This document shows positions 18,852 to 63,179 of a stretch of DNA of 64,000 nt, in pieces. Made by a program: the position numbers and the translations under genes. Under the pieces are notes generated by a model. The model worked only from the letters and a program-made list of their open reading frames with translations. It made no database searches and was not told the DNA's origin. Source of the DNA: a virus; IMG/VR virus record IMGVR_UViG_3300008267_009718, positions 1 to 64,000 of that record; one strand, 5' to 3'. How positions within the stretch are numbered: the stretch's first letter is position 1; every line of letters begins with the position of its first letter.

Positions 18852-19274
18852 TTATGTAAGTTCATTCAACTTAGATCTCATAATGACATCTCCTTTTCTG
18901 AAATTTTTTGCATCGTATTTACAAAGTTTGTTATAACCTGCAGATCTTTTGAATTCACCTGGGGTGTCTCCTTGTTGGATTCTATACAAAAATATGTGCT
19001 CTCTAGCAGCGTCGGCACTTTTAATCTCTCTACCTCTGATTTGATCTATATATTGTTCCTTGGTAAAACAATATTTTCCTCCTGGTGATGGTTTCGTTTC
19101 GTCCATTAATTTTTGAGCAATGAGAACTGGATTTGATTGTACTACATTCTCAATACCTTTTCTAATCTTTGTTCCAATCCCTTTTTGTTCCTCAACTTCT
19201 TTTTCAGTCTCAAGTAAAACCCTTCTAACCATCCTAGTTAAATCTGATTCGGTTAATCTTACAACTTTTTTCAT
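18852..19274 (-). CDS. Small protein with conserved N-terminal helix, possible capsid-targeted protein
   Basis: 140 residues of unknown family. The N-terminus reads MKKVVRLTESDLTRMVRRVLLE: a short strand, then an amphipathic, basic helix ending in L-L-E. Similar N-termini occur on other non-homologous proteins of this phage (genes at 26457 and 49130). L-x-E matches the known cleavage consensus of the T4 prohead protease, so an N-terminal capsid-targeting peptide is a possibility. The C-terminal part (YCFTKEQYIDQIRGREIKSA) is charged and mixed alpha/beta. It sits 17 bases before gp25. Function unknown. Confidence 0.7.
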   Translation of the reverse strand: MKKVVRLTESDLTRMVRRVLLETEKEVEEQKGIGTKIRKGIENVVQSNPVLIAQKLMDETKPSPGGKYCFTKEQYIDQIRGREIKSADAAREHIFLYRIQQGDTPGEFKRSAGYNKLCKYDAKNFRKGDVIMRSKLNELT

Positions 19275-26456: not shown

Positions 26457-27131
26457 TTAAGGCATCATATCTTCTTCATCATCATAAGAATCAAAAGTAT
26501 CTTTTATTTCTTTTGGTGAGAAATCTTCAACCTCATCTTTTGTTAAGATGTATTCTTCTCTACCTGTTTTTTCAAAGTCACTTTCTTTATCTGTAAAATA
26601 ATCACTTAATTTTTGATTAAATGGTCCAGAATCTAAACTCCTAAGTTCTAATTTTTCTTCGGGTGTTTTAGGTCTGAATTTTTCTACTTTTTGTTCTAAA
26701 GAATTAACCATATTAACTAATTTATCCATTTCAGAAAGTTTTGTTTCTAAAGTCTCTAACTGTTTGAATAAATTATTAAAATACTCTTCTTGTTTTGTTT
26801 CTATATTTTTTTGAGCGTTTACCAAATCAGTGATTTCCATTTCTTCTCCTCCCTCATCTTTTACTTCCTCAACATCAGGATCTTGTGAAACATCAATCGG
26901 TTCAGGTGTTGCACTTGCATCAGGTGCTGCAGGTGGTGGGGGTAATGTACCTCCAGGCGCTGCAGGGTCTGTTGGTGCAGGTGCTGCTCCCGCTTCAGGA
27001 GCTCCTGGTGCAGGTGGAGGTGGTACAACAGCAGGTGGGGCAAGGTCTTCAGGTGCTTCCTGTTCCGTTATATACTTATTAATAAATTTATATCTATTAA
27101 TTTCTTCTAAAATTTTTTTATCTATTTTCAT
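26457..27131 (-). CDS. Pro/Ala-rich linker and coiled-coil protein, possible virion protein
   Basis: 224 residues, not recognised. The N-terminal helix (MKIDKKILEEINRYKFINKYITE) ends in I-T-E, similar in layout to N-termini of two or three other proteins here. It is followed by a strongly Pro/Ala/Gly-rich linker (about 26-77), then an acidic stretch, a coiled coil (about 105-150; LFKQLETLETKLSEMDKLV) and an acidic C-terminus ending DDEEDMMP. The design suggests a flexible structural or scaffold-like protein. Three bases separate it from the next gene. Function unknown. Confidence 0.7.
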   Translation of the reverse strand: MKIDKKILEEINRYKFINKYITEQEAPEDLAPPAVVPPPPAPGAPEAGAAPAPTDPAAPGGTLPPPPAAPDASATPEPIDVSQDPDVEEVKDEGGEEMEITDLVNAQKNIETKQEEYFNNLFKQLETLETKLSEMDKLVNMVNSLEQKVEKFRPKTPEEKLELRSLDSGPFNQKLSDYFTDKESDFEKTGREEYILTKDEVEDFSPKEIKDTFDSYDDEEDMMP

Positions 27132-43268: not shown

Positions 43269-44168
43269 TTACTTTGATTTAATTTTCTTTAAAGTTCTTA
43301 TTACTAGTTGCTCCATCATAGTTTTTTCATCGTCTTTAGTTAAATAAGTTTTTAATATATTATCTGGTTTCTTTTCAAAATGTTTTTTCATTACTTCTAC
43401 ATTTCTTACATCATCATCTGAAAAACCTACCATTGGCATTTTTGGGACAAATCTATTACTTACATCATTAACAAATTTATATTCTTTTTTCTGTAATCTA
43501 AATGACATCCCTTTTACATAATTTATAAACTCCTCCATTGCTCTAACCTTGCCCTCTTCAGGATTTGTTGCCGAACCCTCACCATAACTCACAGGATAAA
43601 ATCTACATCTTTCTAAGTAATCCCTTATCAACCAACTTTCATTTGTTATTGGTTTTAATCCCATAATTCTTCTGTATTCTATAAGACTTTGAACTAATTG
43701 TTCCTTGTTTAAACCTCCACGTCCCATTAAAATAAGTTTAAGAACTCCTTTTTTTAACGTATTTGGATGATGTCCGCGAGCTGTTATAATTGCAAAAACT
43801 GAACCGTTATTGATTGCTTCAACAAAGTCTCTCCAAGGACCTCTAACTAATGGAGCATCCTCAATGTCTGTCATAAATTTTGAATCTCCTTGTGTGCCAA
43901 AAAATCTGAATGGATTATCCGCAAAACCAACTATTGTTTCTCCATTATATGTAAAAGGTTTTTTTCCAATATCTGTTCTATATTCTGCAAAATCTTCAGT
44001 TGACATACCAACCTCATCACCTTCTTCATTTAAAAGAATAATTTGTGTTGGCATTTTCATCAAGTTATCATCCCAATCAAATGCATAATATTTTAATCCA
44101 TATTTTTTTTCTTCCAAATCATCAACCATTTCTTTGATAATTTGTCGTGTCAAACTAATATAATTCAT
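43269..44168 (-). CDS. HAD-superfamily phosphatase-like protein
   Basis: 299 residues from the ATG at 44168. A longer frame to 44249 would overlap the sheath gene and its terminator, so it is rejected. Motif I is FDWDDN (D31, D33), motif II IITARGHH near 127-134, and motif IV GFSDDDVRNVE near the C-terminus. These are the four-point signature of HAD hydrolases, with D-x-D-D-N in place of the usual D-x-D-x-T. Possible substrates are nucleotides or phosphorylated nucleic-acid ends; not determinable here. The N-terminus (MNYISLTRQIIKEMVDDLEE) is another short helical leader. It lies between tube and sheath genes, so it may be packaged or carried on the virion; that is inferred. Confidence 0.8.
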   Translation of the reverse strand: MNYISLTRQIIKEMVDDLEEKKYGLKYYAFDWDDNLMKMPTQIILLNEEGDEVGMSTEDFAEYRTDIGKKPFTYNGETIVGFADNPFRFFGTQGDSKFMTDIEDAPLVRGPWRDFVEAINNGSVFAIITARGHHPNTLKKGVLKLILMGRGGLNKEQLVQSLIEYRRIMGLKPITNESWLIRDYLERCRFYPVSYGEGSATNPEEGKVRAMEEFINYVKGMSFRLQKKEYKFVNDVSNRFVPKMPMVGFSDDDVRNVEVMKKHFEKKPDNILKTYLTKDDEKTMMEQLVIRTLKKIKSK

Positions 44169-44169
44169 A

Positions 44170-44180
44170 TTAATAAATAT
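44170..44180 (-). promoter_or_regulatory. TATTTATA-like element next to HAD gene start
   Basis: ATATTTATTAA on the coding strand, only one base before the ATG at 44168. It may be a leaderless-type signal or coincidence. Confidence 0.3.
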
Positions 44181-44190
44181 CACACACATA

Positions 44191-49129: not shown

Positions 49130-50140
49130 TTAAAATATTTTTGGTTCTATATTAAATATAACTTTAGATCTCGATACTACATCATAATCTGAGTTTCTAA
49201 ATATCAAAATTTGATTCTTATTAGCAAAAATAATTCTGTCAACTTTTCTTTTTGATTTGTAATCTCTCATACCATAAGTATTTATTATATATTTCCCATC
49301 TTTTTCGTAAAAAGAAGACATTGGTTTAATCTGACAGTTCAAACCAGAGATTGTAACATCTATTCCATACCACCTATCCATTTTAGAACCAAAAGGATAG
49401 TAAACAACATCAGATATACCCAATTTAGTTATAACATTATTAACTGATTGTTTTTCTAATTTTATACCACTTTCAATAGATTTCCATTGACGATTAACCA
49501 AAAAATTAATAAATTCTTTGTCATTTCTAAATGTAGACACTAACCAATCGGACATATCTTCATTAGAATCTAACTCTTTATATCTCAAATATAATAAATC
49601 GTGAATTTCTAATTTGGTATCAAAATAATTCATAATCGACCAATCTTCTAAAGGGTCTCCGATTTTATCACCAATAGTGTAAATTCCTCTCAATCCAGCA
49701 CTATAAATCTCATCTTCTTCCATCCAATTATCAGGAAAAGCCATTTTGAGGGATGATAATATTGTTTTAGAATTTATACCAATAGTTGAGGGAACGGAAG
49801 AACCCTCTATTTTATAATTTTTGTCAAATTCATCTTTATCAATACTTATTACCTCTCTTTCAGGTTGGATTTTAATCTTATCTTTATCAAATATAAAATC
49901 ACCTGAGCTACCAACAATTTTAATTTTTCCTGGTATTGGGTTTTTATCTTCCACAGATTTTACTTTATTGAAAAAATATTTTTTAGTTCTCCCCTTTTCC
50001 CAAAGTTTTACTGATAAATAAGTGTATTTTGTCGGCTCCACATTATTATCAATATCATCTTCTGAAGACTCAATTAATTTTTTTACTCTGAAATATTGTG
50101 ATTCAGACAAAATAATTTTCATTTTATTTAAATTTTTCAT
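49130..50140 (-). CDS. Unknown protein with possible PD-(D/E)xK nuclease-like core
   Basis: 336 residues. The start at 50140 overlaps gp14 by four bases (ATGA); the internal ATG at 50122 gives MKIILSESQYFRVKKLIESS, a leader like those of the genes at 18852 and 26457. Near the C-terminus, RWYGIDVTISGLNCQIKPMS contains D261 and Q270-x-K272, which fits the D ... (E/Q)xK core of the PD-(D/E)xK nuclease fold, with VDRIIFANKNQILIF after it. This motif is short, so a nuclease role is a suggestion. Lying between gp14 and gp15, it may be a virion-associated protein. Confidence 0.65.
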   Translation of the reverse strand: MKNLNKMKIILSESQYFRVKKLIESSEDDIDNNVEPTKYTYLSVKLWEKGRTKKYFFNKVKSVEDKNPIPGKIKIVGSSGDFIFDKDKIKIQPEREVISIDKDEFDKNYKIEGSSVPSTIGINSKTILSSLKMAFPDNWMEEDEIYSAGLRGIYTIGDKIGDPLEDWSIMNYFDTKLEIHDLLYLRYKELDSNEDMSDWLVSTFRNDKEFINFLVNRQWKSIESGIKLEKQSVNNVITKLGISDVVYYPFGSKMDRWYGIDVTISGLNCQIKPMSSFYEKDGKYIINTYGMRDYKSKRKVDRIIFANKNQILIFRNSDYDVVSRSKVIFNIEPKIF

Positions 50141-50709: not shown

Positions 50710-52419
50710 TTGGAGATTACCTCGAAAACAATAGAACAAAAAGCATTAGATATTTTAGAAGTGTATTCGGGTGCTAACAATTTTATTTTGTATCTAAAAG
50801 AAAAAAAAGAAAAAAGTAAAAAATTCTACCCAACAAGGACACAATCTGATTACATAAATTCGTATTATAATGTTAGACCGAAAATAGCAAGAAAATGGGT
50901 TGAGTTAGATACTTATTTTGCTAAAAAATTCGCGGAAGAAAAGTATTTGTTTCAAACCCCTGAGGGAAAATTTTTTGAAAAAGACGTTTTATCTGAATTT
51001 TGGATTCCTAAGTCAGCATTAATTAAATCCCATACGGTAGAAAAAGTTGAGATTGACTATTCTAAATACGAACATCGTCCTCCACTTTCACATCAAAAAG
51101 AAGCAATAGAAAAATTGGTTGGTTCTCGTAGATTTATATTGGCTGACGATATGGGACTTGGTAAAACCACATCAACTATTATTGCGGCGTTAGAAACGGG
51201 AGCTAAAAAGATTTTAATTATCTGTCCCGCATCACTTAAAATAAATTGGCAAAGAGAAATCGAAAACTATTCAGATAGAAGTGTGTATATTGCCGAAGGT
51301 AAAAAGTATTCTACCGAATCGGACTTTGTTATTGTCAATTATGATATATTAAAAAACTTTCACGATATTAAAGATATATCAAACTCACTACTTGTTCAGT
51401 CAAATTTTGAACTTGTTATTTTAGATGAAGCTCATATGGTATCTAATGCACAAGCACAAAGGACAAAAATAATTAACAACTTTGTTAAAAATATAAAAAG
51501 AGTTTGGTTACTCACAGGAACACCAATGACATCACGTCCGATGAATTATTATAATCTTTTGAGTATCATCGAAAGTCCCGTTGCACAGAATTGGATGGCT
51601 TATGCTATCCGATACTGTCAGGGATACCAATTCAAAGCGGGCAATAGAAAAGTATGGAATGTTCAAGGAGCATCAAATTTAGAAGAACTAAGAGACAGAA
51701 CATCAAAACAAATATTAAGAAGATTAAAAGAAGATGTTCTTGATTTACCTGATAAAATTATATCACCCATATATTTGAGATTACAATCAAAAGATTATGA
51801 AGAAATGATGGGAGAGTATTATGATTGGTATGATAACAAATCAGACGAATCATCATCTTTAACAATTCAGTTCAGTAAATTGATGAAGGTTAGAAAAATA
51901 ATTGCAAATGAAAAAGTTAAAAACACTATTGAATTTGCGGAAAACATAATTGAGCAGGGTAAAAAGGTTATCATATTTACAAATTTTACAGATACTTTAC
52001 AACTGATACATAATCATTTTGGTAAACAATCCGTTTATTTAGACGGTAGTTGTACAAAACCCCAAAGGCAATATGCCGTAGATCAATTCCAAGAAAATGA
52101 AAAGATTAAAGTATTTGTAGGTAATCTTAAAGCAGCAGGTGTTGGTTTAACTTTAACTTCTGCTGAGGTTGTTATTATGAATGATTTATCATTCGTTCCT
52201 GCGGAACACGCACAAGCCGAAGATAGAGCTTATCGTTATGGACAAAAAAATAATGTTCTTGTTTATTATCCTTTATTTGATAATACAATTGAGGGTGCAA
52301 TCTATGATATTTTAAATAGAAAAAAACAAATTATTAATACCGTAATGGGAGATACCTCAATAGAAAGTGGTGGAGATACTGTTGAGGAAATACTTAACTC
52401 TATTAACTCAATGAGATAA
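50710..52419 (+). CDS. SNF2-family DNA helicase/translocase
   Basis: 569 residues from a TTG start; no ATG exists upstream in frame before the divergent gap and none follows until the ATPase motif, so TTG is the most likely start. Walker A LADDMGLGKTTS (144-155), DEAH box 239-242, LLTGTPMTSRP (267-277), and the C-terminal helicase motifs VIIFTNFTDTLQLI and AEDRAYRYGQ are typical SNF2. It probably remodels DNA or protein-DNA complexes in replication, repair or recombination, where T4 has UvsW. It is the first gene of the plus-strand cluster and lies divergent from gp14. Confidence 0.9.
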   Translation: MEITSKTIEQKALDILEVYSGANNFILYLKEKKEKSKKFYPTRTQSDYINSYYNVRPKIARKWVELDTYFAKKFAEEKYLFQTPEGKFFEKDVLSEFWIPKSALIKSHTVEKVEIDYSKYEHRPPLSHQKEAIEKLVGSRRFILADDMGLGKTTSTIIAALETGAKKILIICPASLKINWQREIENYSDRSVYIAEGKKYSTESDFVIVNYDILKNFHDIKDISNSLLVQSNFELVILDEAHMVSNAQAQRTKIINNFVKNIKRVWLLTGTPMTSRPMNYYNLLSIIESPVAQNWMAYAIRYCQGYQFKAGNRKVWNVQGASNLEELRDRTSKQILRRLKEDVLDLPDKIISPIYLRLQSKDYEEMMGEYYDWYDNKSDESSSLTIQFSKLMKVRKIIANEKVKNTIEFAENIIEQGKKVIIFTNFTDTLQLIHNHFGKQSVYLDGSCTKPQRQYAVDQFQENEKIKVFVGNLKAAGVGLTLTSAEVVIMNDLSFVPAEHAQAEDRAYRYGQKNNVLVYYPLFDNTIEGAIYDILNRKKQIINTVMGDTSIESGGDTVEEILNSINSMR

Positions 52420-52447
52420 AACTATCAATGAATGATATTTATTGATA

Positions 52448-53539
52448 ATGAACGTATCAATAAAATATCATAATTCCGATTTACCTAAAAAAGATCACAA
52501 TCTTTATGAGGATTTTATAAAGTTTTTAAACACAAAATTCCCTCTTAAACATAAAGTAGGTATAGTATTTACCGGTGAGAGAATAGGAGGTATGACTACA
52601 GGTAGTCGAAACACCAAACACATTATAAAAGTCTTAACAAAGAAAAGACTTAATAGAGACATAATGAGGACATTAGCTCACGAATGGATTCACGAATATC
52701 AACTTGGTGTTTTAGGAAGAGAAAAAGGTTCAGATATTGGGGGTAGAAATGAAGATGAAGCAAATGCATATGCTGGTAGAATTATAAAAATGTTTGAAAA
52801 AAAATTTCCACAATATGATGAATCAATATTTGAGGGGTATAAAAAACTAACAAAAAAAATTGACTTAATTACTGAACAAATAGAAATTAAAAACAAAGAA
52901 AATGTTCAGAAGGAATTCTTGATGGAAATGAAAAAAATCGGAATTGATAAATTACCTTATTCATATTCCGCAATCAAAAGATTTGTTGATCCTGAGACAA
53001 TGGATATACACTATAATAAACATTACAAAGGATACGTAAAAAAATTAAATGATGCACTTTCAAGTAGAAAGGGGGATTTAGAACTTGAGGATATTATTAA
53101 ATCAATAAGCAAGTTTGATACTAAAGTTAGAAACAACGCTGGTGGAGCATTTAATCATGCATTATTTTGGAAAATGTTGTCCCCCACAAAACAAACACCT
53201 AAAGGTATTGTTGTTGATAAAATAAAAAAACAATATGGTTCATTTAATAAATTCAAAGAAGAATTTAATAAAACCGCATTAGATAGATTTGGTTCGGGAT
53301 GGGCTTGGTTAATATTAACTAAGACAGGAAGATTAAAAATTATGTCAACACCAAACCAAGATAACCCATTAATGAACGTGATTGAGGGTGGGGGTTACCC
53401 GATTCTTGGGCTTGATGTTTGGGAACACGCATATTATTTAAGATACAGAAACAAAAGAGACCAATACATTAAAAACTTTTGGGATTGTGTAAATTGGGAA
53501 TTTGTAAATGAACTATATGATTTAAGAATGAAAAAATAA
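52448..53539 (+). CDS. Zinc metallopeptidase-like domain fused to Fe/Mn superoxide dismutase
   Basis: 363 residues from the ATG at 52448 (a TTG six bases upstream is less likely). The N-terminal ~160 residues contain HEWIHEYQ (H78, E79, H82) followed by NEDEANAYA with E104, the layout of a zinc peptidase with a downstream glutamate ligand. Residues about 169-363 are a full Fe/Mn superoxide dismutase: LPYSYSAIKRFVDPETMDIH, ligand His188; NNAGGAFNHALFW, ligand His237; GLDVWEHAYYL, ligands Asp323 and His327. Gateway His192 and Tyr196 are kept, and Gln304 (NQDNPL) with GG before the second ligand suggests manganese or mixed metal use. It converts superoxide to peroxide. Such a fusion inside a phage is unusual. 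The two-domain reading is direct; any joint function is unknown. Confidence 0.88.
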   Translation: MNVSIKYHNSDLPKKDHNLYEDFIKFLNTKFPLKHKVGIVFTGERIGGMTTGSRNTKHIIKVLTKKRLNRDIMRTLAHEWIHEYQLGVLGREKGSDIGGRNEDEANAYAGRIIKMFEKKFPQYDESIFEGYKKLTKKIDLITEQIEIKNKENVQKEFLMEMKKIGIDKLPYSYSAIKRFVDPETMDIHYNKHYKGYVKKLNDALSSRKGDLELEDIIKSISKFDTKVRNNAGGAFNHALFWKMLSPTKQTPKGIVVDKIKKQYGSFNKFKEEFNKTALDRFGSGWAWLILTKTGRLKIMSTPNQDNPLMNVIEGGGYPILGLDVWEHAYYLRYRNKRDQYIKNFWDCVNWEFVNELYDLRMKK

Positions 53540-53563: not shown

Positions 53564-54688
53564 ATGGCAATCATACCAGAACCTGAAAGATCTAAGTTAT
53601 ACACCCAAATTAGACACCTATTAGGGGCACCATTAAGGAGTGTTGAATTAGAAGACGAACAAATGGATACTTTACTTGAGTTTGCCATAGATCAATACTC
53701 CCAATCCGTTAATGATTGGTTAATAGAATCGCAATGGACAAGTTTGTGGAATTTAAATATAGAGACTCAATCATTATCACGTGCTTTTGTAACAAAAAGT
53801 TTAGACTATGAAACCAGATATACATATGCATATTCAAAAATTGTTGGTTTACAAGCCGGTGGTGAATGGGAATTAAAAAAGGATTACATTCAGTTGGTTC
53901 CTAATCAACAAATTTATGAAATACCTGCAAATAGAGAAATTAATGAATTACTATGGTTTACTCCCGCAGAATTAAATAATATGTTGTTCGACCCTTGGAC
54001 GTTTGGTGGTATTGCAGGAGGTGGTATATCAGGACCGGCAGGATACGCGCAACTTGGTAATATGTCAGGTTCATATTTTATGATGCCAGCATTTGATATG
54101 TTATTAAGAATGCAAGAAATCAATATCCAAAGAAGAATCATTGCAGGTGATTTAACGTATAGAATTACCGCATTACCTGGTGGTAAGAAAGCTATACATT
54201 TAATGAACACACCAGGAGGTAAATTTGATTTCGGTAATTCCACATTAGCAAAAGGTAAAGTATGGTATTGGTATTATGATGTTGGTCCCGAGGATAGAGA
54301 TAATTGTTTGAAGTCAAATCCTGACATAATTAAATTACCTTCTGACGTACCTATCGATAAATTATCTTGGGTTGATTTAAATCACCCAGCACAAGTTTGG
54401 GTTAGAAATTGGTTTATTGCTAGTTGTAAAGAAGTTTTATCAAAAGTTAGAGGTAAATTTAGTGGTAACCTTAAAACACCAGATTCTGAACTTACAATGG
54501 ATTATCAATCTTTGGCAACAGAAGGAAAAGACGAAAAAACAAAATTGGTTGAGGAATTGACAGGTGCTGAAGGTAAGTTGACAAGACTACGCCCTGATAA
54601 AGTTTTAGAGAGAGAGGCTTTACTTGCAGAAAATCTTAATAAAACTTTAAAGTTCAGGGCGTTCCCAAGACAAATTTATGTAATATGA
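53564..54688 (+). CDS. 13: Neck protein, gp13-like
   Basis: 374 residues (T4 gp13 is 309). N-terminus YTQIRHLLGAPLRSVELEDE followed by QMDTLLEFAIDQYSQSVNDW is the helical pattern of gp13-type neck proteins, which join head and tail. Later segments include VWYWYYDVGPEDRDN and VWVRNWFIASCKEVLSKVRG. It couples to the next gene by a four-base overlap (ATGA). In this phage it is separated from gp14 by the helicase and peptidase-dismutase genes, and lies on the other strand. Assignment by pattern and size. Confidence 0.75.
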   Translation: MAIIPEPERSKLYTQIRHLLGAPLRSVELEDEQMDTLLEFAIDQYSQSVNDWLIESQWTSLWNLNIETQSLSRAFVTKSLDYETRYTYAYSKIVGLQAGGEWELKKDYIQLVPNQQIYEIPANREINELLWFTPAELNNMLFDPWTFGGIAGGGISGPAGYAQLGNMSGSYFMMPAFDMLLRMQEINIQRRIIAGDLTYRITALPGGKKAIHLMNTPGGKFDFGNSTLAKGKVWYWYYDVGPEDRDNCLKSNPDIIKLPSDVPIDKLSWVDLNHPAQVWVRNWFIASCKEVLSKVRGKFSGNLKTPDSELTMDYQSLATEGKDEKTKLVEELTGAEGKLTRLRPDKVLEREALLAENLNKTLKFRAFPRQIYVI

Positions 54689-58645: not shown

Positions 58646-60334
58646 TTAACATTCTTTTCTTAAAGTAGATTCATAGTGTTCAAATCTATTGTGTTCAGTA
58701 GGGGTTAATAATAAAATACCAGGATTTATTTCACCATTAACAGTTTTTTGATAACAATGAGACATTAATGTTTGTTCAAAAGGATGTTCAAAAACTGTTT
58801 CTAAATAACATTTGTAATTACCAATTTTTGACATTAAAATGGGCCAATTACATAGATATATTTCACCTGTAGCGTATGGTACTCCTTGAAAAGACTTTAT
58901 ATGTTTGAATTCGGTATTTGGTGAATTTGGATCCAAACCTTGATGAGGTAATTTTGGATTATTCACCCAATGTGTTTCTCTGAAATTTTGAGGTACGTTG
59001 TACCAAGACCATTGTTTGTCATTTGAACCATAAAATTCAGTAAAATTAAGTTTAAGAAAATCAAAACTTTCTTTTTGGAGGATGTTTAATGATTTATTAT
59101 ATAATTTTTTTACATACCTATTAAACCCATTTTTACATATTTCATTTTTTTTAGTGTAAAACAACATATCATCCTCAAAAAAGAAATAATAACCTAAATC
59201 TGTTTGTTCATCAAAGTGTTTTGCTATAAATTGTCTCCCCCCTGTTATACCAATATTATCTTTTTTTATGTGTGTAAATCCGAATTTATCACATAGTTCT
59301 ATATATTTTTCAGTAGTGTTTAAATCAGTAGAATTATTTAGAAGGAATTTTTTTGTTTTTGTTATAAAATCTGTGTCATATTCTAACATAGAGTTTATTA
59401 AAGTTTCAAATTGATTAGGAGAATTAAATGTTATAACATATAACCCAACATTGTTTCCGTTGGTTCGAGTTATTGTATCAAATTTTAAATCTTTTGTGTC
59501 AAAATTTTTAAGAGTAACGTTGTTAATTTTAACATCTTCAAAAAATTTATAAATTAAACCATTAGACTCAATTTCACAATAATCAATTAACGATGGATAA
59601 TTATATAATAAAATAGTAAATAAACTTTCTTCCGTACCCATAAATTTATTATTAAGGGTACTAATTAAGAGATTATAATATAAGCTGTTTATTTCTGAAA
59701 TTGTTTGTTTATCTCCACCAAAAAACCCACCTCTCGCAACAACTTTAGGTATGTTATTTGTAAGTTTTTTCATTTCAGTATAATTAAATCCGTGAACTTC
59801 AGTTTCCGCATCATAAGGAAAACAAACAAATAAAAATTTATTCGTTAAATTTTTTATTTTTTCTAAAACTTTATCGTGTGTAAAATAACCTGAATGTACG
59901 GTATTAGTCAAACCTGCGTCAATCCAAAATAGTTTTTCTGAATCGAATTTATCTAAAATTTTAGCATCATTTAATAAAAACATTTTTGACATTACTAAAG
60001 GATTGTACATCTCGAGTTTTGATTGTGTTGAATCTACCAACCACCCTGTTTGATTATACCACTTTTCATTTGTTCTAATTTGTTGTATTAAAGTATAATA
60101 CTCATTATTTTTAAACCAATTAACATCCCTCTCAATAAATTGAGTATTTGATTCATTTCTTCTTTCAAATACAAACTCTTTGAGTTTTGAGTCTCCGAAA
60201 ATAATCATAGGATTATCTATTGTTAATAATTCCGAAAATTTAGAAAGGTAAAACTCAAATGAACGAGACCAACCTTCATTGAGCCCTCCCCTACCAATGT
60301 CCCATAATCCAGTAACAAGCGTTAAATTATTCAT
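58646..60334 (-). CDS. Two-domain glycosyltransferase (HtrL/YibB-like plus GT-A)
   Basis: 562 residues. The N-terminal ~280 residues resemble HtrL/YibB-type transferases: LTLVTGLWDIGRGGLNEGW, KLFWIDAGLTNTV and VARGGFFGG. From about 298 a second domain begins with VGLYVITFNSPNQFETLINS, and near 388 has FFFEDDMLF, an acidic motif typical of a GT-A fold that binds nucleotide sugar and metal. The fusion suggests an enzyme adding two sugars. Its start overlaps the neighbouring gene by eight bases. It is one of four adjacent transferase genes. The substrate is unknown. Confidence 0.82.
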   Translation of the reverse strand: MNNLTLVTGLWDIGRGGLNEGWSRSFEFYLSKFSELLTIDNPMIIFGDSKLKEFVFERRNESNTQFIERDVNWFKNNEYYTLIQQIRTNEKWYNQTGWLVDSTQSKLEMYNPLVMSKMFLLNDAKILDKFDSEKLFWIDAGLTNTVHSGYFTHDKVLEKIKNLTNKFLFVCFPYDAETEVHGFNYTEMKKLTNNIPKVVARGGFFGGDKQTISEINSLYYNLLISTLNNKFMGTEESLFTILLYNYPSLIDYCEIESNGLIYKFFEDVKINNVTLKNFDTKDLKFDTITRTNGNNVGLYVITFNSPNQFETLINSMLEYDTDFITKTKKFLLNNSTDLNTTEKYIELCDKFGFTHIKKDNIGITGGRQFIAKHFDEQTDLGYYFFFEDDMLFYTKKNEICKNGFNRYVKKLYNKSLNILQKESFDFLKLNFTEFYGSNDKQWSWYNVPQNFRETHWVNNPKLPHQGLDPNSPNTEFKHIKSFQGVPYATGEIYLCNWPILMSKIGNYKCYLETVFEHPFEQTLMSHCYQKTVNGEINPGILLLTPTEHNRFEHYESTLRKEC

Positions 60335-61214
60335 TATTGAGTTCTTCTATTATTTTATAAAAACTTTTATTTTTCTTTGTATGCGCTATAATATCAAAGT
60401 CAGGTATTCTTTCATCTTCATGCCACCAAATATCAAAACTATATGAGTGAAATAATTCTTCGTGATTTCGATACATTAAAGACATAATATGTTCCTCAAA
60501 GTATAAATTATTGTCTGAAATTGTAACTTCAGTTAAATAGTCGTTGAACAAATCAACAATGTTTTTCCACAATTCTTTTTTACCTCCAAATAATCCTCCA
60601 ATAACGTGATAACTTCTATCATATTTTTTGTAATGTATTGGATTAACAGTACCAGACCAATAATTCCTATCGTTTTCTTTTGCGATTATCGTAAACTTGT
60701 TTTCAGTTTTTCTAACTAAATTTCTGAGAAATACATTATTAAAAATATTTGATTCATAATAACCCTTATTATGATTACCCGTTAGTGACAAGTATTTGTT
60801 TGGTAGTAATCCACAATGTGATAGTCCTGCATCAATCCAAAAGTAATAATCATAAGACATATCTTCATTATTAAACCATTCAAATTTCATATATTGAATC
60901 TCTAAACACCTATCTCCGACTTTTGCCTTTTCCACATCTTTATATTTGTTTATTAAATTGGAATACCGATTTTTATTTAAATCTGATACAACAATTTTTA
61001 ACTTCTCCTTGTTAACATTATTTTCAATAAAGAAAAAGGTTTTTAAATCCTCGTACTCTCTATCAGATGTATAACAAACAAAATCCGCATCTGTCATTTT
61101 TAAAAGAGATAACAAACTCCATCGATAATGCCAATATCTATTAGGTCTTCCACCAAATTCACTACCGAATAAATCACTATATATTGCAGTAATAAATTTA
61201 ACAGATGGTTTCAT
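60327..61214 (-). CDS. Glycosyltransferase, HtrL/YibB-like
   Basis: 295 residues from the ATG at 61214 (MKPSVKFITAIYSDLFGSEF). A longer frame to 61355 only adds a Lys-rich, unlikely extension that overlaps the upstream gene and is rejected. Features: YYFWIDAGLSHCGLLP and VIGGLFGGKKELW, shared with the N-terminal half of the next gene, so the two are paralogues. It overlaps the GT25-like gene by 17 bases. Probable sugar transferase on virion or host glycans. The acceptor is not known. Confidence 0.8.
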   Translation of the reverse strand: MKPSVKFITAIYSDLFGSEFGGRPNRYWHYRWSLLSLLKMTDADFVCYTSDREYEDLKTFFFIENNVNKEKLKIVVSDLNKNRYSNLINKYKDVEKAKVGDRCLEIQYMKFEWFNNEDMSYDYYFWIDAGLSHCGLLPNKYLSLTGNHNKGYYESNIFNNVFLRNLVRKTENKFTIIAKENDRNYWSGTVNPIHYKKYDRSYHVIGGLFGGKKELWKNIVDLFNDYLTEVTISDNNLYFEEHIMSLMYRNHEELFHSYSFDIWWHEDERIPDFDIIAHTKKNKSFYKIIEELNNE

Positions 61215-61935
61215 ATATTTTTTTTTCTTTTTTTTCTTTATTAGTATTAAAATCCATATATTCGTTTGGAATTTTAATGGGACTGTAAGAGTTCCAATTA
61301 TACGTTTGAGTGTAAAAATTATTATACATTCCTTGTGAGATATCCGACCAATCATTACCCTGACAACAAATTGGTAGTATAGGGCAATATGATTGATATT
61401 TTTGTATTATAAAATGAAATAAGTAATCATCATATGCATAAAAATAATCACCATTTTGATGTGAGGTATTTTTAATGTTAAAGATTTCGTTTATTACGTT
61501 TTTATCGTACACTACCATATTCGCAGCATAGATTTCCCTAAATTCAGGACGTTGTTTTTCAGGGAGATTTGTCATATCTAAAAGAAACTCACTTTTGTTA
61601 GATTTATTAATATGTCTATTTAATGTGGGAGATAAATTTAAGATAGAATAATCCAATCTCTCCAATTCAGAATCTAACTTATTAATCAAAGATTTTGCAT
61701 AAGGCATAAAAAAACAATCATCCTCAATTATCATTACCTTATCAAAATTTCTTTCTTTTGCAAGTTTTAAGACTTTCAAATGGGATAAAGTACAACCCAT
61801 ATATGAATTAGTGTCAATACCATATACAAGTTCATAATCCCAACCGATATACTCTAATTCTCTCTTAATCGATTCAAGTCTATCGGGTCTTCTTTTTAAA
61901 TTAATTACAAACTTGGGAATATCTTTTATTTTCAT
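61198..61935 (-). CDS. Glycosyltransferase family 25-like
   Basis: 245 residues. FVINLKRRPDRLESIKRELE (9-28), YMGCTLSHLKVLKLAKERNF (45-64) and VMIIEDDCFF with the acidic triplet E71-D-D at 71-73 are the family 25 pattern, found in lipopolysaccharide-type and collagen-type galactosyl/glucosyl transferases. It overlaps the upstream gene by four bases (ATGA) and the downstream gene by 17 bases. Acts with the neighbouring transferases, perhaps on a common acceptor. Confidence 0.88.
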   Translation of the reverse strand: MKIKDIPKFVINLKRRPDRLESIKRELEYIGWDYELVYGIDTNSYMGCTLSHLKVLKLAKERNFDKVMIIEDDCFFMPYAKSLINKLDSELERLDYSILNLSPTLNRHINKSNKSEFLLDMTNLPEKQRPEFREIYAANMVVYDKNVINEIFNIKNTSHQNGDYFYAYDDYLFHFIIQKYQSYCPILPICCQGNDWSDISQGMYNNFYTQTYNWNSYSPIKIPNEYMDFNTNKEKKEKKIYETIC

Positions 61936-63179
61936 AATAAACCTGTTAATCTAGGACACCATCCCTTTGATTTACTATACGGCCAAACAACCCAATACTT
62001 TGGTTTTTCTGTTGTATGAAATTCTCTCCATATCTTACAATATTTATCGGGATCTTGTTTCATTCTATTTATTTCATTTATATCGGCATCTTGCCTAAAC
62101 ATAGTTTCATCTTTTTCATTGTGAAACGCTACCACCCAAAAATCATAATCAGTTTCAGGTACACCATCAAAAGATAAGTCAATACAATGTTTAAAAATTG
62201 TTGTGAAACTATTTAACCATTCTTCTTCATTTTCATACGGATATGGATTAGGTGGGTACTGTTTGTCAACCGTGTATTGTTGAATTGCTCTTTTTGAGAA
62301 TAGAATTCCGGCATATTTTTCGTAATCTTTGATTGTTCTTTCATTTCCAAAACCATATTTTCCTAATTCACCATTATAAGATTCTCCATCAACACCTAAA
62401 ATTTCTCTATTTTTTTTATGACACTTTACATTTTTTGTGTGCCATTCTTTATCGTCATCCCACTGTTTTGTTCTACCCTTTCTTGTGTATTCATGCCAAA
62501 TTACAGTTCTATTCGGATGAAACAAATCATATCCGTGAGTATATGCTCTCACCGCAATTGATATTTCTTCTCCGTGAAAATAATATTCAGGGTCGTGTTG
62601 AACTTCTTTAGAAAATTGCCCTAATGTAAATGCAAAATGCGCGGAGTAAAATCTTGAAGGTATGGGTTCTTTAAGTTCTTGCCAATTAGGAATAACTTCA
62701 GGTAGAAAGAAAACAACACCTTCGGGTGTAAATCTATCAAAAACCATTCTCCACGGTTCGGTAACTCTTCCTTGAGGATCGTTTTCAGGGTCGAAAGATG
62801 AAACATATCCAGTTAACAAAGGTTTTTTATAACCTTTCTTTTGTAATTGTTTTAACATCTTAATGAGGGTTACATCCCAATCTTGTTCGAACCTCATATG
62901 AGAATCTAATTGGAGTGTGTACTTCTCTCCTTTGTATAATTGTTGAACTTGATTCCTCGCCCAACATACTCCTGTCGAATCTTGATATGGTACATTTAAT
63001 ATTCTGAATCTTTCATCATTCTCGTATTCAGATAAGTCGTCAAAACCATCTTCAGGGTGATATTGACGACAAATACCAAAACGTAAGTTTTCAGGTTTTT
63101 TAGATTTATCAATACAATCTTTGATTGTTGGTATAAGTTGGGGGTCTCTATAAGACGCGATTTGAATAAAAATTTTCAT
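61932..63179 (-). CDS. GlcNAc-transferase-like glycosyltransferase (Skp1/GT60 type)
   Basis: 415 residues. IQIASYRDPQLIPTIKDCID at the start, LRFGICRQYHP and the metal-binding D-S-H of LQLDSHMRFEQDWD (D92-H94) are typical of the GlcNAc-transferase family first known from the Dictyostelium Skp1 enzyme, which modifies hydroxyproline of a protein. A later PEYYFHGEEISIAVRAYTHG segment fits as the acceptor-side loop. It is the first gene of the four-gene transferase operon, next to a glycine-rich fibre gene, so a protein acceptor in the virion is possible. The acceptor is inferred. Confidence 0.88.
   Translation of the reverse strand: MKIFIQIASYRDPQLIPTIKDCIDKSKKPENLRFGICRQYHPEDGFDDLSEYENDERFRILNVPYQDSTGVCWARNQVQQLYKGEKYTLQLDSHMRFEQDWDVTLIKMLKQLQKKGYKKPLLTGYVSSFDPENDPQGRVTEPWRMVFDRFTPEGVVFFLPEVIPNWQELKEPIPSRFYSAHFAFTLGQFSKEVQHDPEYYFHGEEISIAVRAYTHGYDLFHPNRTVIWHEYTRKGRTKQWDDDKEWHTKNVKCHKKNREILGVDGESYNGELGKYGFGNERTIKDYEKYAGILFSKRAIQQYTVDKQYPPNPYPYENEEEWLNSFTTIFKHCIDLSFDGVPETDYDFWVVAFHNEKDETMFRQDADINEINRMKQDPDKYCKIWREFHTTEKPKYWVVWPYSKSKGWCPRLTGLL

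Follow-up and report, generated by a model that had tools for sequence, protein, structure and literature searches.

Gene organisation of the locus

The stretch of DNA analysed here (the window; 64,000 nucleotides) belongs to a virus record of 64,065 bp. One single open frame at 52442-53539(+), with a likely ATG at 52448, encodes a protein of 363 amino acids in which a zincin domain is joined by a linker to a superoxide dismutase (SOD). This peptidase-SOD fusion ORF is confirmed as real, far beyond chance. Its parts and conserved neighbours are as follows, with ↓ marking a predicted cut.

52448..53539, + strand: whole ORF, zincin domain plus linker plus superoxide dismutase (363 aa)
52448..52831, + strand: N-terminal zincin (HExxH metallopeptidase-like) domain, aa 1-128 (AlphaFold2, structure matches, 18 invariant columns)
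52679..52693, + strand: HEWIH zinc motif, aa 78-82; H78, E79, W80 and H82 invariant in 38 sequences
52751..52759, + strand: Glu102 and Glu104, candidate third zinc ligand; both invariant, placed by the model at the start of the helix after the HExxH helix
52832..52930, + strand: linker, aa 129-161, predicted propeptide or capsid-targeting-like segment (low model confidence; (L/I)xE density)
52868..52876, + strand: predicted prohead-protease site ITE↓Q, aa 141-143; in the main clade (L/I)xE, then mostly Q
52919..52927, + strand: predicted prohead-protease site LME↓M, aa 158-160, abutting the SOD (alignment on the site)
52928..53536, + strand: Mn-type Fe/Mn SOD, aa 161-363 (Pfam PF00081 and PF02777, phmmer, invariant ligands)
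50710..52419, + strand: SNF2/UvsW-type helicase, conserved upstream neighbour (profile match, synteny)
53564..54688, + strand: neck or head-tail adaptor protein, conserved downstream neighbour (PHROG 211 'head-tail adaptor', E 8.7e-11; synteny)

The helicase stop codon and the start of the peptidase-SOD gene are separated by 28 bases. The placement of the gene between a helicase and a neck gene, reported in an earlier note made from the window alone, is borne out and extends to relatives. Elsewhere in the window, a run of ORFs at 58646-63179(-) looks glycosyltransferase-like by eye.

The C-terminal half is an intact SOD with Mn-type residues

Pfam places Sod_Fe_N at aa 166-245 (E 1.2e-20) and Sod_Fe_C at aa 252-355 (E 2.9e-41), with scores of 74 and 140 bits against cut-offs of 27 and 20.9. 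The earlier note had recognised the four metal ligands and the gateway residues in this one protein; in an alignment of 100 rows, comprising 99 distinct phage SOD cores and the query, the ligands H188, H237, D323 and H327 are identical in 100/100 rows and the gateway residues H192/Y196 and Trp285 are equally invariant. Gln304 and Gly233, residues of the Mn type, are likewise present in 100/100 rows. The best solved relative found by phmmer is the Mn-SOD 5a9g of Sphingobacterium sp. T2 (E 1.2e-63). The SOD is thus intact and, we predict, very probably active.

Bacterial Mn-SODs such as that of Sphingobacterium sp. T2 (PDB 5a9g/6gsc) share with the phage SOD the fold, ligands, gateway and Mn-type Gln/Gly. 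In contrast to these enzymes, the phage SOD lacks a signal peptide, bears instead a propeptide-like extension with (L/I)xE motifs, and is often fused to the peptidase and/or to further modules. A tree with 80 cellular SODs unites the phage SODs in a single clade (support 100/100) that sits on a long stem. Among the cellular SODs retrieved, the nearest are mostly from Bacteroidota, with best identities of 52-58%, which makes a Bacteroidota host likely as judged from sequence; two further weak matches, between the tail sheath and Flavobacterium phage immuto and between the DNA polymerase and Salinibacter phages, are consistent with this assignment. Many of these nearest cellular SODs (L131-L210) have N-termini resembling Tat or lipoprotein export signals; an exported enzyme may thus have been the ancestor of the phage SOD.

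The N-terminal half has a predicted zincin fold

Modelled alone, the N-terminal 131 residues yield an AlphaFold2 pLDDT of 94.1 and a pTM of 0.90. Structure matches obtained with VIA-align include YbeY (Z 9.7), Wss1 (9.1), M1 aminopeptidases (8.9) and IrrE (6.5); a Z below 8 is weak by itself, and here the active-site motif and the fold agree. Across 38 relatives, H78, E79, W80, H82, E102 and E104 are invariant. These data support the N-terminal half as a predicted zincin-type metallopeptidase domain. The zinc-peptidase layout that the earlier note had seen in HEWIH and a downstream Glu holds up, both in the invariance of the motif and of the candidate ligands E102/E104 and in structure prediction, which returned a metallopeptidase fold of the zincin type at pLDDT 94.

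Assignment to a named family is another matter. A Foldseek search of the domain against the PDB gave no match at E <= 0.001, and the zincins separated only with VIA-align. Among viral structure models, the matches include IrrE-like proteins, and the closest is an uncharacterised Caudovirales protein with 39% identity and a TM of 0.89-0.91. The Pfam hits are all sub-threshold, with best values of E 0.017 for SprT-like and E 0.036 for M78. We rejected classification as SprT-like (PF10263; the window protein scores 13 against a cut-off of 25.6), and as M78/IrrE (PF06114), BSP or M76, all of which fall under their Pfam cut-offs. The domain has HExxH and a downstream Glu in common with the IrrE/M78-like and SprT-like groups of phage zincins but lies beneath every Pfam cut-off.

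Distribution and gene order

Well over 100 related loci occur in freshwater viral contigs. A scan of viral contigs with the window protein gave 181 relatives, of which 80 were kept, most of them spanning the whole query; a second scan, started from a more distant SOD, gave at least 600 pattern-matching stretches, at least 595 of them confirmed. The earlier note had proposed a search for the same fusion in other genomes, and dozens of distinct homologous fusions were found in independent contigs; in two contigs from other samples, the gene is 99% identical to that of the window. The gene order is nearly constant: helicase, peptidase (where present), SOD, neck protein, small protein and, on the opposite strand, DNA polymerase. 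The long relatives, of up to 304 kb, are T4-like. Upstream of L101's SOD, the helicase homolog at L101:3608-5992 has a start that looks intein-like (Hint) by eye, KVGDKVIGSDGNSHNVTGVYPQG.

These observations bear on the possibility that the fusion is an artefact of assembly or gene calling, such as a chimeric contig or a missed stop codon. We found no support for such an error, and L101, which encodes peptidase and SOD as separate overlapping frames, shows that fusion and fission events take place. An artefact is refuted by the dozens of different fused ORFs seen in independent contigs, including two at 99% identity, and the constant gene order and the low dN/dS across both domains (0.02-0.11 for the SOD, 0.08-0.25 for the peptidase) speak against it as well; we consider its probability negligible. 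These dN/dS values show strong purifying selection on both domains, as estimated from the aligned sequences.

The earlier note knew of no described fusion of a dismutase with a peptidase, and there is no fused counterpart among annotated phage records: a search of INPHARED for an isolate with the peptidase-SOD fusion found none, and the peptidase matches there are weak cyanophage ones alone. INPHARED also gives many SOD matches under Staphylococcus, Salmonella, Listeria or Enterococcus phage labels; these come from unannotated or very short records, resemble host DNA and were excluded. Fe/Mn SODs do occur in the large genomes of Pseudomonas phage Callisto (Wroclawvirus) and Vibrio phage 2.275.O. 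These are about 27% identical to the window SOD, are encoded by separate genes of ~180-190 aa without the peptidase, and lie in another neighbourhood; these isolate jumbo-phage SODs (OR142618.1 81550-82098 and MG592671.1 34051-34620) are found near ClpS-like genes and, in Callisto, near IbpB too. The view that dismutases are rare in phages therefore stands for sequenced isolates but not for the present lineage, where at least 595 confirmed stretches make the enzyme standard equipment.

Gain and loss of the parts

The fusion is real, as the earlier note had claimed, but it is not a fixed two-domain enzyme, because ORFs that retain SOD and linker repeatedly lack the peptidase. In a second clade of 80 ORFs, 53 are fused and 27 encode the SOD without peptidase. 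On a tree of 99 SODs, the fused or stand-alone state changes at least 13 times, with 5 changes forced by well-supported branches. Two ORFs (L251 and L294) appear by eye to carry in-frame deletions that left the first and/or last peptidase residues before the linker. The peptidase also occurs alone in other phages (L087-L098 and L102), in records of up to 318 kb that contain no SOD, and in L099 it is fused to a part other than SOD. Behind the SOD, relatives carry additional C-terminal modules that fall into four sequence families, for which Pfam and PHROGs gave no reliable family name. A D...QxKP pattern like that of PD-(D/E)XK nucleases is visible by eye in modules behind the SOD (L022:3394-5178, L084:7090-8133 and L101:7100-8038) and in a separate tagged gene of the window, 49130-50140(-).

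Were the protein a true two-domain enzyme, peptidase and SOD would act jointly, the former for example removing oxidised proteins or a host regulator while the latter detoxifies, or the peptidase would cut its own linker to free the SOD. In favour of joint action, every peptidase, fused or stand-alone, retains the HExxH motif and two acidic residues, and purifying selection acts on both domains. The coming and going of the parts nevertheless suggests separable units in a chain more than a joint peptidase/dismutase activity: at least 13 changes in the presence of the peptidase, 5 of them forced, map to the SOD tree, stand-alone peptidases are found in long records without SOD, and a search of 12 stand-alone-SOD records for a peptidase gene at another place found none, these records being mostly fragments that include no positive control. 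Self-cleavage is set aside because the linker site persists in proteins without the peptidase. We consider a true two-domain enzyme improbable.

Cleavage-like sites in the linker and at the module joints

In the full-length model, the region of about aa 131-170 has a mean pLDDT of 40-57. When the sequences are aligned on the site before the SOD, P1 is E in 102/102 and P3 is I or L in 102/102, while P2 is free (S, N, T, M, L or F; entropy 2.4 bits); outside these 102 of 104 sequences, L009 carries LTE↓M at a later position, where the regular expression missed it, and L020 has a truncated frame that leaves the site out. Stand-alone SODs keep the same ~30-aa extension as their N-terminus, and it must therefore be more than a hinge between two domains. 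Among cellular SODs, only 4/83 have (L/I)xE at this place.

The motif is also dense. Linkers contain 3.0 (L/I)xE per 35 aa, compared with 0.25 in peptidase and SOD windows and 1.42 in composition-matched shuffled linkers, so that composition accounts for about half of the linker sites but not for all. At the junctions between SOD and C-terminal modules, the motif occurs within the first 35 aa in 19/19 non-redundant proteins versus 38/128 later windows, and the 33 junction sites exceed the shuffled mean of 11.6 and maximum of 21. Every junction of the four module families bears (L/I)-x-E.

The T4 prohead protease gp21 cleaves behind L/I-X-E, and the T4 internal proteins are carried into the head by capsid targeting sequences, which are short and N-terminal (PMC9026906, PMC9958956); reviewers of this system have suggested that the targeting route could let T4-like phages take in various proteins (PMC9026906, PMC9958956). 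In giant phages, related proteases likewise cleave behind x-x-E, and a propeptide may contain several sites (PMC5694885). Since the (L/I)-x-E before the SOD coincides with the published T4 specificity, we read the SOD as candidate cargo; the conserved sites lend indirect support to the suggestion of the earlier note that the protein may be carried on the virion.

The main rival is an ordinary cytosolic auxiliary metabolic enzyme: in the cytoplasm, the SOD would keep the infected host alive against superoxide while the phage replicates, the linker would be a flexible, helix-prone hinge and the peptidase a chance fusion. Such an enzyme would fit the plain stand-alone SOD genes of Callisto and 2.275.O near ClpS-like (in Callisto, IbpB) stress genes, the proximity of the SOD gene to the helicase gene (28 bases), and linkers so rich in L, I and E that the motif count is partly compositional. 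Yet that count is higher than in composition-matched shuffles, all aligned linkers have P3 and P1 fixed with P2 free, and loss of the peptidase leaves the extension in place. In an alpha helix, residues i and i+2 face different sides, which makes helix packing a poor account of a fixed P3 and P1. We regard a purely cytosolic role as unlikely, though it deserves more weight than joint action of the two domains.

Tagged proteins and head genes in these phages

Similar sites are found at the N-termini of unrelated proteins. Of 128 non-homologous proteins from these phages, 31 have at least two sites in the N-terminal window, whereas shuffling yields a mean of 13.7 and at most 26; later windows match their shuffles. 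Typical tagged N-termini are MKKIIRLTENDLIKLVKRVIFEQ and MKRLIISESERKNIRKLYKLDE. The window contains four candidates.

49130..50140, - strand: unrelated protein, N-terminal tag MKIILSESQYFRVKKLIES, candidate co-packaged cargo (tag enrichment)
18852..19274, - strand: unrelated protein, N-terminal tag MKKVVRLTESDLTRMVRRVLLE, candidate co-packaged cargo
26457..27131, - strand: unrelated Pro/Ala-rich protein with two N-terminal (L/I)xE sites, candidate cargo
43269..44189, - strand: unrelated protein, N-terminal MNYISLTRQIIKEM, candidate cargo

The protease that such sites call for is encoded by the longer relatives, from which the following counts come, the 64-kb window being a fragment without the head module. 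Of 12 long relatives, 8 encode an S77 prohead protease (E 1e-23 to 1e-25) and 9 a Gp23-type capsid protein, with N-termini that share ...FLINE↓AT. In L005 the head module contains a portal-sized ORF, the S77 protease and the capsid gene; between the latter two lies an acidic core-like ORF that has at least 12 sites, and further ORFs of the module bear tags such as MLNDIIKKILREA.

A capsid-cargo interpretation

We propose that the gene encodes a precursor of separable parts, namely a zincin domain, a flexible propeptide-like linker and a predicted active Mn-type SOD. The precursor would be made late and drawn by its linker or tag into the prohead core, where the S77 (gp21-type) protease would cut after (L/I)-x-E; the SOD freed in this way would have an almost native N-terminus, M161-K-K-I-G... 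This mature enzyme would stay in the capsid with the DNA, enter the cell at infection and remove superoxide in the host during the first minutes, to the presumed benefit of the phage. The peptidase, which many relatives can do without, might be released inside the head, might be a passenger or fused neighbour, or might have a separate role; we prefer none of these. That the SOD is internal-head cargo, freed by the prohead protease and delivered with the DNA, is the reading we favour and think rather probable. The broader proposition, in which whole precursor chains of unrelated enzymes joined by targeting and cleavage linkers are cut by the head protease and an antioxidant enzyme is delivered with the genome, we advance tentatively, with belief slightly short of evenly divided.

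Several observations count against cargo. The weakest point of this reading is the position of the tag: T4 has it at the N-terminus, whereas the fused protein has it internally, following the peptidase, and only the stand-alone SOD relatives carry it N-terminally. The (L/I)xE motif is a short one, in linkers with abundant L, I and E. Conservation extends to the residues behind the E, and the signal could therefore in part reflect the start of the SOD itself. The gene starts 28 bases past the helicase stop and so may not be expressed late.

The known kinds involved are the Fe/Mn SOD, the zincin and the T4-type head cargo. With the gp21-cut T4 internal proteins (IPI-IPIII, Alt), these phages share a (L/I)-x-E site and an N-terminal tag common to unrelated proteins, and the T4-like genomes of the long relatives have an S77 protease and a Gp23-type capsid protein. 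They differ in that the predicted cargo is a conserved metabolic enzyme and in the chains of two to several tag-joined modules. We suggest that the SOD works like a T4-type capsid-targeted internal protein; we do not file it as a member because its tag is internal. Virion packaging of an SOD has a precedent in chlorovirus PBCV-1, whose Cu/Zn SOD (A245R) is described as a late gene product packaged in the particle and proposed to lower superoxide during infection (PMC7019647). Packaging of the window SOD is predicted, and A245R belongs to an unrelated Cu/Zn family in a eukaryotic algal virus, with no tag or protease processing described (PMC7019647).

What appears to be new is an SOD as candidate cargo, the peptidase-SOD fusion, and tag-like putative cleavage sites at every joint of a modular chain. 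In the open-access literature, which our search covered, we found no description of an SOD-zincin fusion or of a tagged modular chain, and nothing relevant to the letters of the tag. If the cargo interpretation is true, phages that are common in freshwater deliver an antioxidant enzyme to the cell along with their DNA, and infection of their probably Bacteroidota hosts depends in some measure on oxidative conditions at its start. The (L/I)xE tags at N-termini and joints would then be a sequence rule predicting head cargo in uncultured T4-like phages, and many genes of unknown function could be put to the test. Should packaging prove wrong, the fusion of an intact and strongly conserved SOD to a zincin across a large phage lineage would still appear undescribed in the open-access literature.

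The flanks of the stand-alone peptidase genes and their neighbours (L087-L102) contain many short unrelated genes with N-terminal tags of the type MKKIIRLTESDLxxIVKRVIxE, which could represent a large set of head cargo.
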